Shown: piece by piece, positions 2,713-44,514 of the stretch | Layout of the letters: every line of letters begins with the position of its first letter | Position numbering within the stretch: the first letter of the stretch is position 1 | IMG/VR virus record: IMGVR_UViG_3300049216_000614 | Coordinates: 1-44,637 of that record | Length of the DNA stretch: 44,637 nucleotides | Reading direction: 5' to 3' (one strand) | DNA from: a virus | Position numbers and translations under genes: made by a program | The notes under the pieces: model-generated | Told to the model about the DNA's origin: nothing | The model's database searches: none | Seen by the model: only the letters and a program-made list of their open reading frames with translations

Positions 2713-2961
2713 ATGGCAGATATAGCTATAGGTAGTAAGATTCCAACAACATTTTTACCTGATGATTGGAGAGCTGTGGGAGCGAAGGAATTTACCTGTT
2801 CGGAAAATACGGTGGAGAGAGTGGTATACGGAATAGCAGCAAAGACTTCCAGGAACTTGCAAATATTTGATTTCATGCTGGCGTTGGCATTGGAGGGCAA
2901 ATACAAAGCAGAGGAAGAAGAGGCGGAAAGGCAGAAACGTTTAACCGATTTAACCGACTAA
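2713..2961 (+). CDS. Small Cro-like DNA-binding protein candidate
   Basis: The 82-residue product opens the rightward operon. Residues about 17-42 (DDWRAVGAKEFTCSENTVERVVYGIA) look like a compact helix-turn-helix with 'CSENTVERVVYG' as recognition helix, followed by an aliphatic helix and a long charged C-terminal helix (EEEEAERQKRL). Small proteins of this pattern are common as the first gene after the control region in Bacteroidetes prophages. The role of Cro-type early regulator is inferred from position and the HTH-like stretch. Start ATG 2713 has no strong Shine-Dalgarno. Confidence 0.55.
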   Translation: MADIAIGSKIPTTFLPDDWRAVGAKEFTCSENTVERVVYGIAAKTSRNLQIFDFMLALALEGKYKAEEEEAERQKRLTDLTD

Positions 2962-2963
2962 CC

Positions 2964-3527
2964 ATGAACCCAATACCTGCAGGCGCGCTCGATCACAATT
3001 TTGAATTTTTTACTCATGAAGGCCTGTACGCATTCTGTCTTAACCATGGTAAGGTTTCCGCGTTCGAGGAATGGCCGAATGAGCTGATCGATCATATCTA
3101 TGACGAAATGTGTTTGGGCTATCCTGATAAAGCTTTCTACCTCAATAAAATGGGGGTGTATGGCAAAAAGGAAATGGTTCGGCAGCTGATCATCTGCAAT
3201 TACGGCGCCTTTGATCATAACGCGGACATGGTGGACGGCAAGCTGCAGCAGCCTGAGTATTGGGATTGCCCGGTGCGCAGCAGCTGTAAATTCGACGGCA
3301 AGGTTTGTAATGGCTGCAAGACCGACACCGGCAAGCAGCTCACCGCGCACCAAGTACAAATTCTTAAATATGTGGTTGCCGGCCATGCCAATAAAGTGAT
3401 CGCCGGCATGATGGGGATATCTAAATATACGGTCGACAAGCATTGTACCCTGATCTGCAAAAAGACAGGACTTTTTACCAAGGTCGACCTTACCAGTTTC
3501 GCTTACCAAAAACGCATCGTACAATGA
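2964..3527 (+). CDS. LuxR-type HTH protein with a Cys-rich segment
   Basis: The C-terminal third of the 187-residue product (about 126-187) is a LuxR/GerE helix-turn-helix: LTAHQVQILKYVVAGHANKVIAGMMGISKYTVDKHCTLICKKTG. Ahead of it, residues about 101-118 carry CPxxxxCxxxxxxCxxC, which could bind a metal. There is no receiver domain, so it does not look like a standard two-component regulator. It starts two bases after the preceding stop and overlaps the next gene by ATGA, so it is part of the early operon. A role as activator of later phage genes is possible but not shown; the metal site and the absent sensor domain are what stand out. Confidence 0.7.
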   Translation: MNPIPAGALDHNFEFFTHEGLYAFCLNHGKVSAFEEWPNELIDHIYDEMCLGYPDKAFYLNKMGVYGKKEMVRQLIICNYGAFDHNADMVDGKLQQPEYWDCPVRSSCKFDGKVCNGCKTDTGKQLTAHQVQILKYVVAGHANKVIAGMMGISKYTVDKHCTLICKKTGLFTKVDLTSFAYQKRIVQ

Positions 3528-4152: not shown

Positions 4153-4604
4153 TTCTTTAAGGCGGAGGGTTAGTGTACCTCTCCATAACAACCGGTTACA
4201 GTTCCGGAAGTATTTGGGCATTCGTTCTTTATAAGAGTCAAAAAATTAACAGCAAAGCTGTTTTGAGGCTGGCCAGCCCTGTCGGTATTCGGATAGAACC
4301 AACTTGATCAACTGGCTATCGCAGAACGGAGATCGTCAATGGCCAAGGCGATAGGAGCCCCGTAAGAGAAAGTCCTCTTAGCTCCAAATGTGTGTGTAGT
4401 TCAATGGACAGAATGACTCGGGTATGCTTTGCTACACGAGCGGATAGAGGTTCGAATCCTTTCATACACTCAACCGGTTTCATAACCCGGTTTGCGGCTT
4501 CTTCCATGTGGCCGTAATTGTGATAAGGTTTAGGTTTAGGACTCTGAGACGCGATGTTGAGGAGTCCTTATTTAAAAGCTAATTATTAACTAAAACATAA
4601 AAAA
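4153..4604 (+). ncRNA. Non-coding stretch rich in hairpins, possible structured RNA
   Basis: This 452-bp gap in an otherwise gap-free operon holds no credible gene on either strand but many short perfect stems: GGAGGG/CTCTCC (4164-4184, one wobble), AACAGC/GCTGTT around AAA, the 12-bp palindrome GGCTGGCCAGCC, TATCGC/GCGATA (4318-4353), GGAGC/GCTCC enclosing TAAGAG/CTCTTA (4354-4385), then the tRNA-like domain, AACCGG/CCGGTT, CGGC/GCCG and AGGACTC/GAGTCCT (4536-4566). CAACCGGTT is repeated at 4189 and 4469; its palindromic core could join the two ends. The orientation is taken from the operon and the tRNA-like part. No family was recognised. Confidence 0.55.
4388..4468 (+). tRNA. tRNA-like element with an abnormal anticodon arm
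   Basis: The parts fit tRNA order. Acceptor ATGTGTG pairs with CATACAC (6 of 7 pairs, one G-U). TA at positions 8-9 is followed by D-arm GTTC/GAAT with GG in the loop. The T-arm AGAGG/CCTTT encloses TTCGAAT (one G-U). The variable region is 4 nt and CCA is not encoded. The anticodon arm is wrong for decoding: a four-pair stem CTCG/CGAG encloses a 16-nt loop (4419-4434) that can extend as GTA/TAC and GC/GC around TTT. So this is a tRNA mimic, a decayed tRNA, or one with a small insertion, rather than a normal isoacceptor. Confidence 0.6.
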
Positions 4605-41994: not shown

Positions 41995-42585
41995 ATGAAA
42001 AAAATTATTCTTATCGCGTTCCTATGCATTTCTTTTAAACTATTTGCACAGGATAAACTGGCAAATCCCGACCAAAAAAACATAGCCGCATCTGGCAAGA
42101 GCAATTTCGAGAAGTTTGCAGAACGAACCGGGAGCTTAGAAAAAAAAGAATATTTCGATCTTGAAAAAATAGCTGATATTAAATTTGAACTTATCCGGCT
42201 CACAGATTTGAATACTGACAGTGTTAAATTTTCTCTATTGCTTTCCGGCCTTTCTAAAACTTATAACAACTGTGAAGTTTATCTCGATCAGGATGAATTC
42301 GAGGCCTTGGATAAAACGATTGGTTTTATGATCGAAAAAGTTATTCCTACCAGTCCAAACGTGGAGCAAGTGGAATATAATTTTTTGTCCCGCAGTGATT
42401 TTCGGTTTAGCACATATAATAACAATGGATTTCTTACTTCAAAAAAGAAATGGCACATCTGGTGTACACTTGATGATGCTCCGCTAATACGTAATTATAC
42501 AAATTTTGAGTTCGATCCCGAAGATTTGCCTAAAGTTAAAACCTTGCTTAGTAATGTGATCACCCGTATAGCTACGATGAAATAA
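41995..42585 (+). CDS. Secreted protein, prophage moron candidate
   Basis: The 196-residue product starts with a Sec signal (MKKIILIAFLCISFKLFAQD). The mature part is alpha/beta with no catalytic motif ('KIADIKFELIRLTDLNTDSVKFSLLLSGLSKTYNNCEVYLDQDEFEALDKTIGFM'). It is more AT-rich than the late genes, has its own terminator behind it and a possible host-type promoter (TTTG at 41942, TATATTG at 41965). Such independent units are typical of morons expressed in lysogens. A function at the cell envelope is likely but undefined. Confidence 0.65.
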   Translation: MKKIILIAFLCISFKLFAQDKLANPDQKNIAASGKSNFEKFAERTGSLEKKEYFDLEKIADIKFELIRLTDLNTDSVKFSLLLSGLSKTYNNCEVYLDQDEFEALDKTIGFMIEKVIPTSPNVEQVEYNFLSRSDFRFSTYNNNGFLTSKKKWHIWCTLDDAPLIRNYTNFEFDPEDLPKVKTLLSNVITRIATMK

Positions 42586-42607
42586 TACCACCAAATTAGT
42601 ATTGCGC

Positions 42608-42631
42608 AGCTGCTAATAAGCAGCTTTTTTT
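42608..42631 (+). terminator. Terminator after the secreted protein gene
   Basis: AGCTGC (42608-42613), loop TAATAA, GCAGCT (42620-42625), then a run of T to 42631. Confidence 0.88.
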
Positions 42632-42669
42632 GTGCTTGTAATTCCCGATTACTTTTTGCACGTTTGTAG

Positions 42670-42823
42670 TGCACAACACGTTGGCGCAATCCAACGATAA
42701 CTTTCTTGAAAATAATGTCCAGGCGCCCGGTGAAAGTCCGGCTACAAATCAGTTCGCTGACGTGTTGTGCAACGACCTGGGCAATTTTCTCATGTTTAAA
42801 TTTTATTCGTCATGCACAACACG
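42670..42823 (+). ncRNA. Structured leader RNA with alternative pairing over a start codon
   Basis: Arms TGCACAACACGT (42670-42681) and ACGTGTTGTGCA (42760-42771) form a perfect 12-bp stem around three hairpins: GTTGG/CCAAC (42680-42695), CCGG/CCGG with loop TGAAAGT (42727-42741) and CAG/CTG with a TTCG tetraloop (42750-42759). The sequence TGCACAACACG returns at 42813-42823, spanning the start codon of the next gene, so the 3' arm can pair with it instead. A terminator ends just upstream and a TACTTTTTG at 42650 could be the -7 element. This is the layout of a translational switch; no known class was recognised. Confidence 0.6.
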
Positions 42824-43078
42824 AAAGAAACCAACCCAATTACCGCGGCTAAAGAAAAGCTGGAGGACACCTTACGTTATTTTATTGATGGCACCAACGC
42901 GTTTGATGCCAGTACAGGAATGTTAACTTTGCTAAAAGAAATGCGCCCGGATGATTTGCTACCGGAAGAAGCGAAGGCAATTTATGGCATGTTACAGGTA
43001 GTAAACGCCGTGAGCCGGCTGCAGGTAGCCGAAAGCCATGAGGCGTTTACCCCAAACCATAAATTAAAAATTGCGTAA
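42812..43078 (+). CDS. Hypothetical small protein under the switch-like leader
   Basis: The product is 88 residues from ATG 42812: helical and mixed-charge ('ITAAKEKLEDTLRYFIDGTNAFDASTGMLTLLKEMRPDDLLPEEAKAIYGMLQVVNAVSRLQVAES'). It may be a small regulatory protein. Its start codon lies inside the third copy of the 11-base leader repeat, and its stop overlaps the next start (TAATG). It lies next to the integrase, where phages often keep excision or control genes, but no HTH or excisionase pattern is evident. Confidence 0.6.
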   Translation: MHNTKETNPITAAKEKLEDTLRYFIDGTNAFDASTGMLTLLKEMRPDDLLPEEAKAIYGMLQVVNAVSRLQVAESHEAFTPNHKLKIA

Positions 43079-43299
43079 TGGATATCGAAACCAAATATAT
43101 ATTGAACAAGTCACGCCTGCAGCACCTGCAGCGCGTGACCAGGTTCAAGTTAAACTGGCTTAAAAAGCATCACCCGGAAATATTCGAAGCGATGAACGCG
43201 GCCAGTGACTTGAACGATGAGAAACATGCCGACAGCCAAATGGAGATTTTTAACACGCCATCCTTAGTTAGGATTAAACGTGATCTCTCCATCGAATGA
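43078..43299 (+). CDS. Hypothetical small protein, convergent with integrase
   Basis: The product is 73 residues, basic at the N terminus and helical ('NKSRLQHLQRVTRFKLNWLKKHHPEIFEAMNAASDLNDEKHADSQMEIFN'). Its last 36 bases overlap the 3' end of the integrase gene on the other strand. Cotranscribed with the gene before it. A DNA-binding or excision-related role is possible given charge and place, but unproven. Confidence 0.55.
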   Translation: MDIETKYILNKSRLQHLQRVTRFKLNWLKKHHPEIFEAMNAASDLNDEKHADSQMEIFNTPSLVRIKRDLSIE

Positions 43300-44514
43300 G
43301 TCGTCTATCTTGAACCGCATTTCCTTCATTCCGCCTAACTTATTCATGTTTTGCATTTGGAGATCTTTCCGTTTTTCGCTCATTTTAATATAAATCATCG
43401 TAGTCTCGATACTCGAGTGGCCCATCAGGCCCATAAGCGTATATACATCGCCGCCCATCTCGATAAACAGCGTTCCGAAGGTATCCCGGCTAACATGAAA
43501 CGTTAATTTTTTTTCAATGTCGGCCAGTATCGCTATCGATTTTAAATACCGGTTGCAGGTCTGATCTGTTACCGGCTCAAACAATAAGCCATTCCTGCCT
43601 TTTATCAGCTGCAGCGCATAGTCTGGCAGCGTCATGTGGACCTGCTTTCCGAAATTGAAACCTTTGATCAGGTTCATGTGCAGCTTGCCGTTCCTGATCA
43701 TCGAACGATGCACCTCATGGGTATCGCTAACGCGTAGGCCTGTGTAGCAGCTGAATAAAAATTTCCTTAACACTTCCTGCGCGATGCCGGTTAACTTTCC
43801 CGATCCGTAAAGTTCTTTCAGTGCCTCGAGCTCATGCTCCTCCAGGGCCTCGCGTTCACCCTCGACAAATTTGAAAGAAAATTTATCATACGGATAATCA
43901 AACTTGATCTTATCGGCCATCGCGTACTGCATGTAGGAACGGAATGTTTTATGATCAGTGCAAACCGTATTATGCGACCAGCCTTTTTTCTTTCTTGCCC
44001 AGGCGTTATAGGCTTTCACGAGGTTTAAGCTGATATCGTTGAATAATAATACCTCTGCGCCCAAATATTCGGCTAACCGGTTATAGCTGGTCGTGTGGTT
44101 CGTTTTCGTGGTTTCAGTGATGATATCTTCCTTCCGGTTACCGGCCATCTTTTTTTTCCAGTAGTTCATGAAATTGTCTGCCGACAAATAATTCAGGAAT
44201 TCCTCCCGGAAGATCACGATGGTCAGTTTTTTATTCTCCGAAAAATATTTGGTTTTTATGCGGTTAGCCCGGGTTTTTGCTTCGCCAATCACCATATTAA
44301 GCGGATCAACGTCAAGATCGCCGGCAAACCGTTGTAAAGCGATTTCTTTGTCAGCATCAAAAAATTTCGCAGGCCACGCCTGGTTAAGCGGGAATTCTTT
44401 TTTCTTACGATCTATGATCACTCGCAGGTACAAACTGCTCAACCCGGACTTTTGGACGTGGTGATGGCAAAACACATAGGCTGTAACAGCCTGGCTAAAA
44501 CTACTTTTTTTCAT
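43264..44514 (-). CDS. Tyrosine recombinase / phage integrase
   Basis: The product is 416 residues from ATG 44514 (or 419 from 44523); the frame is open further upstream to the window edge, but MKKSSFSQAV is the usual kind of start for Bacteroidetes integrases. An N-terminal arm-binding and SAM-like core-binding domain precede the catalytic domain, with 'SCYTGLRVSD' (first Arg), 'FHVSRDTFGTLF' (H-x-x-R) and 'LMGHSSIETTMIYIKMS' (His and nucleophilic Tyr). It integrates and excises the prophage. It faces left and converges with the early-late direction of the genes before it. Confidence 0.9.
   Translation of the reverse strand: MKKSSFSQAVTAYVFCHHHVQKSGLSSLYLRVIIDRKKKEFPLNQAWPAKFFDADKEIALQRFAGDLDVDPLNMVIGEAKTRANRIKTKYFSENKKLTIVIFREEFLNYLSADNFMNYWKKKMAGNRKEDIITETTKTNHTTSYNRLAEYLGAEVLLFNDISLNLVKAYNAWARKKKGWSHNTVCTDHKTFRSYMQYAMADKIKFDYPYDKFSFKFVEGEREALEEHELEALKELYGSGKLTGIAQEVLRKFLFSCYTGLRVSDTHEVHRSMIRNGKLHMNLIKGFNFGKQVHMTLPDYALQLIKGRNGLLFEPVTDQTCNRYLKSIAILADIEKKLTFHVSRDTFGTLFIEMGGDVYTLMGLMGHSSIETTMIYIKMSEKRKDLQMQNMNKLGGMKEMRFKIDDSFDGEITFNPN

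Follow-up and report, generated by a model that had tools for sequence, protein, structure and literature searches.

A short tract of phage DNA that lies upstream of its own complement and recurs across the next start codon raises the question of what such an arrangement controls. The DNA analyzed here, referred to as the window, consists of 44,637 bases (IMG/VR virus record IMGVR_UViG_3300049216_000614, positions 1 to 44,637) and is prophage-derived, with a terminase 70–71% identical to Mucilaginibacter prophage terminases. A preliminary description of the locus had proposed an anti-sequester logic, in which one strand would pair either with the 5′ arm of a leader RNA, leaving the start codon free, or with the start codon itself.

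The structured leader occupies positions 42670-42782 (+ strand), between a promoter and two small genes. The upstream boundary of the cassette is marked by the intrinsic terminator of the preceding gene (42608..42629, + strand), with the stem AGCTGCT/AGCAGCT followed by a T-run. A Bacteroidota-type promoter is then present at 42635..42666 (+ strand), with the −33 element CTTG (42635-42638) and the −7 element CACGTTTG (42659-42666). The promoter consensus derived from 43 leaders was TTTG ... [C/T]A..TTTG at −35 to −4 relative to arm a, with an A at −10 in 43/43, and transcription in the window would begin at ∼42669-42670, where arm a begins.

Three tracts of the + strand define the putative switch. 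Arm a (TGCACAACACG, 42670..42680) is a candidate 5′-terminal decoy that pairs with strand a′ (42761..42771), as indicated by covariation; a′ is the exact reverse complement of both a and a″ and thus the common partner of arm a and the start codon. The a″ element (42812..42823) comprises the ATG and a second copy of TGCACAACACG at 42813-42823, which overlaps the ATG at 42812. Both direct copies lie where they had been reported and were exact and unique in the window; no further site without mismatch to a, a′, or a″ was found anywhere in it. The complement had been placed at 42760-42771. An exact complement is indeed present, but the part common to both pairings is the 11-nt segment 42761-42771, and position 42760 pairs only with T42681. 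For k = 9, 10, and 11, this was the sole occurrence in the window of a direct-copy pair flanking its own complement within 170 nt, and no such triple was observed at k = 9 or 10 in 60 Markov-shuffled windows.

The three hairpins already described are enclosed by the a:a′ helix. Hairpin H1 (42681..42694, + strand) carries a GNRA tetraloop in most relatives (alignment A4). Hairpin H2 (42727..42741, + strand) has a covarying stem and the loop TGAAAGT in the window, with TGNAAGT near-invariant in alignments A1 and A4. Hairpin H3 (42749..42760, + strand) has a TTCG loop in the window, is directly stacked on a′, and displays two-sided changes at 4/4 pairs. These hairpins were confirmed; the upstream promoter had been missed, as had a 7-bp helix outside the fold formed by strands b (42717..42723, + strand) and b′ (42776..42782, + strand), which covary with each other. 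Given that b:b′ crosses a:a′, the leader is a pseudoknot. The conserved core consists of the GNRA loop, the TGNAAGT loop, a GNGACC joint, and the pseudoknot. A different candidate pseudoknot, between the linker ACTTTC and the loop GAAAGT, was hinted at by the window sequence and was rejected, as it is not kept in relatives (alignment A4). Minimum-energy folding gave z = −2.1 for the leader and −0.04 with the start region included; such folding is uninformative by itself because it cannot show pseudoknots or alternative structures.

The two small ORFs behind the leader converge on the integrase gene (43264-44514, − strand). Gene 1 (42812..43078, + strand) encodes a predicted three-helix protein of 88 aa that matches no known family and is not SymE; its structure model was of low confidence (pLDDT 66, pTM 0.41). 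Gene 2 (43078..43299, + strand) encodes 73 aa, with no family above cut-off, and its start overlaps the gene 1 stop (TAATG), so that it is probably translationally coupled to gene 1. Searches of viral contigs, genome contigs, and phages with short peptides or tblastn revealed no relatives of the 88-aa protein. When 401 family genomes were searched in six frames, one relative emerged (L022), and a homologue with 38–39% identity sits behind a variant leader in L060. The phage proteins had no match in PHROGs or PADLOC. Such small helical phage proteins form a diverse family (window 42812-43078; L060, L061, and L214; L014:2028-2255 and 2796-3065) whose genes lie near the integrase or terminase, and several members end in LKIA, LKVVA, or LLKIPA. 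Elsewhere in the window, a tRNA-like Rfam match of 42.5 bits at 4390-4470 (+ strand), which ARAGORN does not report, is possibly an odd or decayed phage tRNA.

The first homologues of the leader came to light when 401 Sphingobacteriaceae genomes were searched at the DNA level. Among them, L028 is situated ∼2 kb upstream of the terminase gene in a related M. gossypiicola Gh-48 prophage; the others were located in other phages and in chromosomes. Two covariance models were used, R1, which describes the leader without the start region, and R2, which was rebuilt from 21 leaders. With R2, 34 of 391 Sphingobacteriaceae genomes (about 9% of the sample) yielded 51 matches, and these figures apply to this family only. 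Applied to 395 genomes sampled across the phylum, R1 detected the leader in only 2, one being the starting genome; at genus level it did so in 3 of 150 genomes. Together with further phage copies found in IMG/VR, a total of 58 leaders from Bacteroidota phages and Sphingobacteriaceae genomes was assembled (alignment A5). The full a/a′/a″ triple is present in 43 of the 58, with 39 distinct triples and 33 distinct a′ sequences. The exact a..a′ pattern found no match in viral contigs because the arms vary between relatives. A promoter-plus-arm pattern applied to viral contigs returned 51 stretches, nearly all unrelated; among the 37 distinct sites scored, none besides the known L012 phage exceeded 16/20, and the 43 accepted leaders scored at least 17.5, so that the pattern search serves as a negative control. 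The earlier statement that the RNA belongs to no known class holds against Rfam 15, in which no known riboswitch or leader class was matched at gathering or relaxed thresholds. For C4 RNA (RF01695), no match was obtained in window 42500-43100 at E ≤ 10 or in eight relatives at E ≤ 1, and no description of this leader was found in the open-access papers searched.

Covariation was assessed in a plain MAFFT alignment of 13 leaders (A2), which was not fitted to a structure, and in alignments A4 and A5, which were fitted to the structure model and therefore lean towards it. In A2, a:a′ was 97.7% paired, with two-sided change at 7/10 pairs, and a:a′ plus the hairpins was 93% paired; among the 58 leaders, a:a′ was 96.3% paired. 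Pairing of a′ with a″ was complete in the 13 rows of A2 (143/143 cells), with two-sided change at 8/11 pairs and in 39 cells, and its covariation score of 0.79 compares with 0.20 in shuffles and at most 0.11 for slid helices. The nested structure in A5 was 94% paired, with two-sided changes at 20/21 pairs and a covariation score of 0.63 versus 0.18 in shuffles. The crossing helix b:b′ was paired in 87% of cases across the 58 leaders, with two-sided changes at 7/7 pairs, as illustrated by the variants GCTCAGG/CCTGAGC, GCATAGG/CCTATGC, GTCTAGG/CCTAGAC, and GCCCGAG/CTCGGGC. A lack of covariation, or of joint conservation of the three copies, had been named in advance as grounds for refuting the proposed logic. 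The outcome was the opposite: the copies change together in phages and in chromosomes alike, and a:a′, a′:a″, and all hairpins covary. Two mutually exclusive pairings, one of them over the start codon, are thus both conserved, and a core with invariant loops and joints (A1/A4) is separate from a switch strand that occurs in 33 different forms. Two copies of a divergent leader, preceding paralogous genes (L012/L016, in a 40,701-base phage record and adjoining its integrase), keep the a/a′/a″ and b/b′ logic with a different inner fold, a GAGCCGG...CCGGCA hairpin, and are likely a second subclass.

Models R1 and R2 do not include a″. In 24 of 36 leaders found with them, an ATG was followed by bases able to pair with a′ at ≥9 of 10 positions, compared with 3.4% in shuffles. 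At positions 2-10, differences between a and a″ give G-U in a:a′ with Watson-Crick in a′:a″ at 26 sites and the reverse at 1 site (p = 4e-7), although these sites come from related leaders and are not all independent events. That G-U rather than A-C occurs at the wobble sites shows that the + strand RNA is the pairing molecule. The asymmetry itself means that selection keeps a′:a″ perfect and a:a′ somewhat weaker, as would be needed for a displaceable decoy. The sister leaders L053 and L054 have identical a arms, and one of the two shows a joint change of a′ and a″. Between a′ and the ATG, the spacing is short and varies little (27-51 nt). The start-codon 12-mer of L028 has a single occurrence in the 8.2-Mb genome that contains this leader, at its own start. 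Two observations count against the best explanation given below. Free energy computed without the pseudoknot favors a:a′ in most leaders, the forced a:a′ and a′:a″ folds being near-equal with a median of 1.8 kcal/mol in favor of a:a′ (pseudoknot ignored), and the ATG copy or the gene is lost in some leaders (L190, L201, L205, and the first of the L192 copies). In L205, the arm-a copy is located about ten codons into the gene rather than at the ATG, and L201 is similar but weaker. Gene-less copies at L192:4931-5046 and L190:5355-5626 lie immediately upstream of complete ones and are either decayed remnants or free-standing RNAs. Tandem leader-plus-short-ORF units are present in L053 (G074:C6) and L054 (G074:C15); in L053, three leaders fall within one continuous 332-aa open frame, so that the structured RNA itself would be translated.

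The genes behind the leaders are unrelated to one another. They encode small helical phage proteins (the window, L060, L061, L214, and others), SymE_toxin proteins (PF08845) above the curated cut-off (L025/L213, two scanned in L185, L186, L190, and L209), and RadC-like JAB proteins (L187, L202, and L211). In the prophage context of L191, inspection placed the leader between tape-measure-like and integrase-like genes, as in the window. A defense island in L185 contains AIPR/AbiU and OLD/Gabija-like genes with three SymE cassettes around them; each SymE-type cassette (L185:2301-7503) has its own leader with a different a′ and is interleaved with those defense genes on the opposite strand. The defense-island leaders of L202 and L213 adjoin HsdM and HsdS and FRG and GmrSD-like genes, respectively, and L211 adjoins HsdM/HsdS-like genes by inspection only. 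The same leader thus precedes SymE toxins or RadC-like genes in defense islands and is found near the terminase in other phages. Because the cassette also occurs in these places, the earlier suggestion that it ties excision or lysogeny to a signal does not follow.

The leader is probably a translational switch that acts in cis and is carried in cassette form, a reading to which a probability of about 0.6 is assigned. Sequence comparison shows its helices, both alternative pairings and their unequal strength, the strand, the position, and the promoter motif; the transcription start, the order of folding, the default state, and the effect on translation are inferred. RNA polymerase would start at about 42669-42670, making arm a the 5′ end of the RNA. 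In an early fold, a:a′ would close H1, H2, and H3, with b:b′ forming the pseudoknot and the start codon left free. Once the start region is transcribed, a″ would take a′ from a, the displacement being possible because a′:a″ is the stronger helix. The a′:a″ helix would then cover the start codon, leaving gene 1 and the coupled gene 2 untranslated. The balance might be set by whatever stabilizes or disturbs the core, be it a ligand, a protein, an RNA, or merely time and ribosome traffic.

The same a′/a″ complementarity would serve an RNA acting in trans, and this counts against the cis reading. A co-transcribed antisense RNA, like P4 CI or P1/P7 c4, would be a short species of ∼115–130 nt that is ended or processed after b′; its a′ would silence full-length or incoming copies at their start codon, a would keep a′ folded until a″ is met, and in a lysogen immunity to like phages would result. 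This alternative is judged unlikely, although it is the likeliest of the rivals. The layout a–a′–a″ equals seqA–CI(seqB)–seqC of P4 (PMC4825925) and resembles the antisense-before-target order of c4 (PMC5320573). That one conserved scaffold carries 33 different a′ in 39 distinct triples is as diversified specificities would predict, tandem copies carry different a′ (L053, L054, L185, and L012), and a″ divergence is already at its plateau (∼0.49) between leaders with 70–80% identical cores. The b:b′ helix and the U-rich sequence that follows could end the short RNA, but a loop of ∼50 nt and an irregular T-run are ill suited to a terminator. Also against action in trans are the short, fixed distance to the leader's own start codon and the location of the sole site in the L028 host, which is the leader's own gene; moreover, the closing stems of riboswitches vary freely too. 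Considered improbable is a folding timer of the hok or AapA type that senses no signal, in which a:a′ would be a metastable early fold, a′:a″ the final inert fold, and translation would follow RNA age or processing. The systematic weakening of a:a′ relative to a′:a″, the synthesis of the 5′-terminal arm first, and the SymE toxins among the targets are consistent with such a timer, and AapA3 is a documented case of such metastable folding (PMC6733600). However, the conserved core exceeds what a timer needs, and forced-fold energies often favor a:a′.

Three further readings carry little weight. An RNA antitoxin acting by attachment to the product of its own gene (type III-like, as RCd22 with AbiF), with the start-codon copy merely a feedback device, would suit toxin-like targets in defense islands and prophages, and a structured RNA upstream of its own gene has been described for AbiF (PMC12373285). 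Given that unrelated proteins (SymE, RadC-like, and several small helical) stand behind one scaffold, a single RNA could hardly bind them all, and the strongest constraint is on start-codon pairing; this makes the antitoxin reading very improbable. Arm a includes an ATG or GTG in 29 of 39 distinct leaders, as might be expected if arm a opened a translated leader peptide or decoy ORF, but 10 of the 39 have neither codon, and there is no conservation of peptide length (3-67 aa), of frame, or of where the stop falls, so that a peptide is, if anything, even harder to credit. Inverted and direct repeats near a tyrosine recombinase could in principle reflect a DNA-level feature (a recombination site, an invertible segment, or insertion terminal repeats) or a chance repeat. 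Yet the repeats differ in sequence among relatives with pairing and G-U wobble preserved, leaders also lie far from integrases, their orientation to promoter and ATG is constant, and none arose in shuffles; this explanation is refuted for the family by covariation and is given virtually no credence.

That one scaffold keeps start-codon complementarity for unrelated genes through many sequence changes makes it a natural re-targetable control element, one that phages and defense-island genes both use. If it works as proposed, toxins such as SymE would, in Bacteroidota, be controlled from within their own leader, and it would become possible to ask directly whether small genes carried by phages stay silent until a signal arrives. 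A speculative and rather doubtful extension is that the cassette is a mobile sensor of phage infection or prophage induction, spread through Bacteroidota phages and defense islands. The pseudoknotted, aptamer-like core would bind an infection signal, and the closing strand, which otherwise locks the start codons of interchangeable toxin and accessory genes, would open.

Several known systems share parts of this design. In a translational riboswitch, a multi-helix core is conserved, the closing stem is variable, and the 3′ strand of that stem doubles as the sequesterer of the start codon. The leader has the same anti-sequester layout, but its genes encode toxins and phage accessory proteins rather than metabolic functions, and it matches no Rfam class. 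The c4 antisense RNA immediately precedes its target on a shared transcript. In P1/P7 c4 RNA (RF01695), the scaffold is conserved and the targeting loop varies (PMC5320573); the leader resembles it in having an antisense segment ahead of the target, a conserved scaffold whose targeting segment is variable, and a translation start that would be blocked. By contrast, the leader is ∼117 nt long versus 77 for c4, has no Rfam match even at E ≤ 10, and its pairing segment is a strand of the closing stem, not a loop. P4 CI RNA has a pairing partner on either side, seqA upstream and seqC downstream (PMC4825925); likewise, an RNA segment is here complementary to two direct copies, one on either side, on one prophage transcript, co-transcription being inferred from the promoter motif. 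In P4, pairing leads to transcription termination, whereas a″ covers the start codon itself, and the leader differs further in its pseudoknotted core, its unrelated small-gene targets, and its Bacteroidota host phylum. The leader is thus laid out like P4 CI and P1 c4 RNA and, by the tests run here, is homologous to neither. Gifsy-1 IsrK is likewise a prophage leader RNA whose alternative folds control translation of the next gene and which has short and read-through forms (PMC4825925), but IsrK activates in trans via long helices, and its description has no a/a′/a″ start-codon triple. Type I toxin mRNAs (hok, AapA3, and timP) also adopt mutually exclusive folds around the start region, and the active form of timP has a pseudoknot as well (PMC11228461). 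Several targets of the leader are SymE-family proteins (PF08845), as in SymE/SymR; in that system and in type I systems, the antitoxin is a separate antisense RNA, whereas here the complement lies inside the leader. The leader is a previously undescribed RNA family of a known broad kind, a regulatory leader with alternative pairing, and its unusual feature is that one mobile scaffold tracks the start codons of interchangeable genes, SymE-family toxins included.
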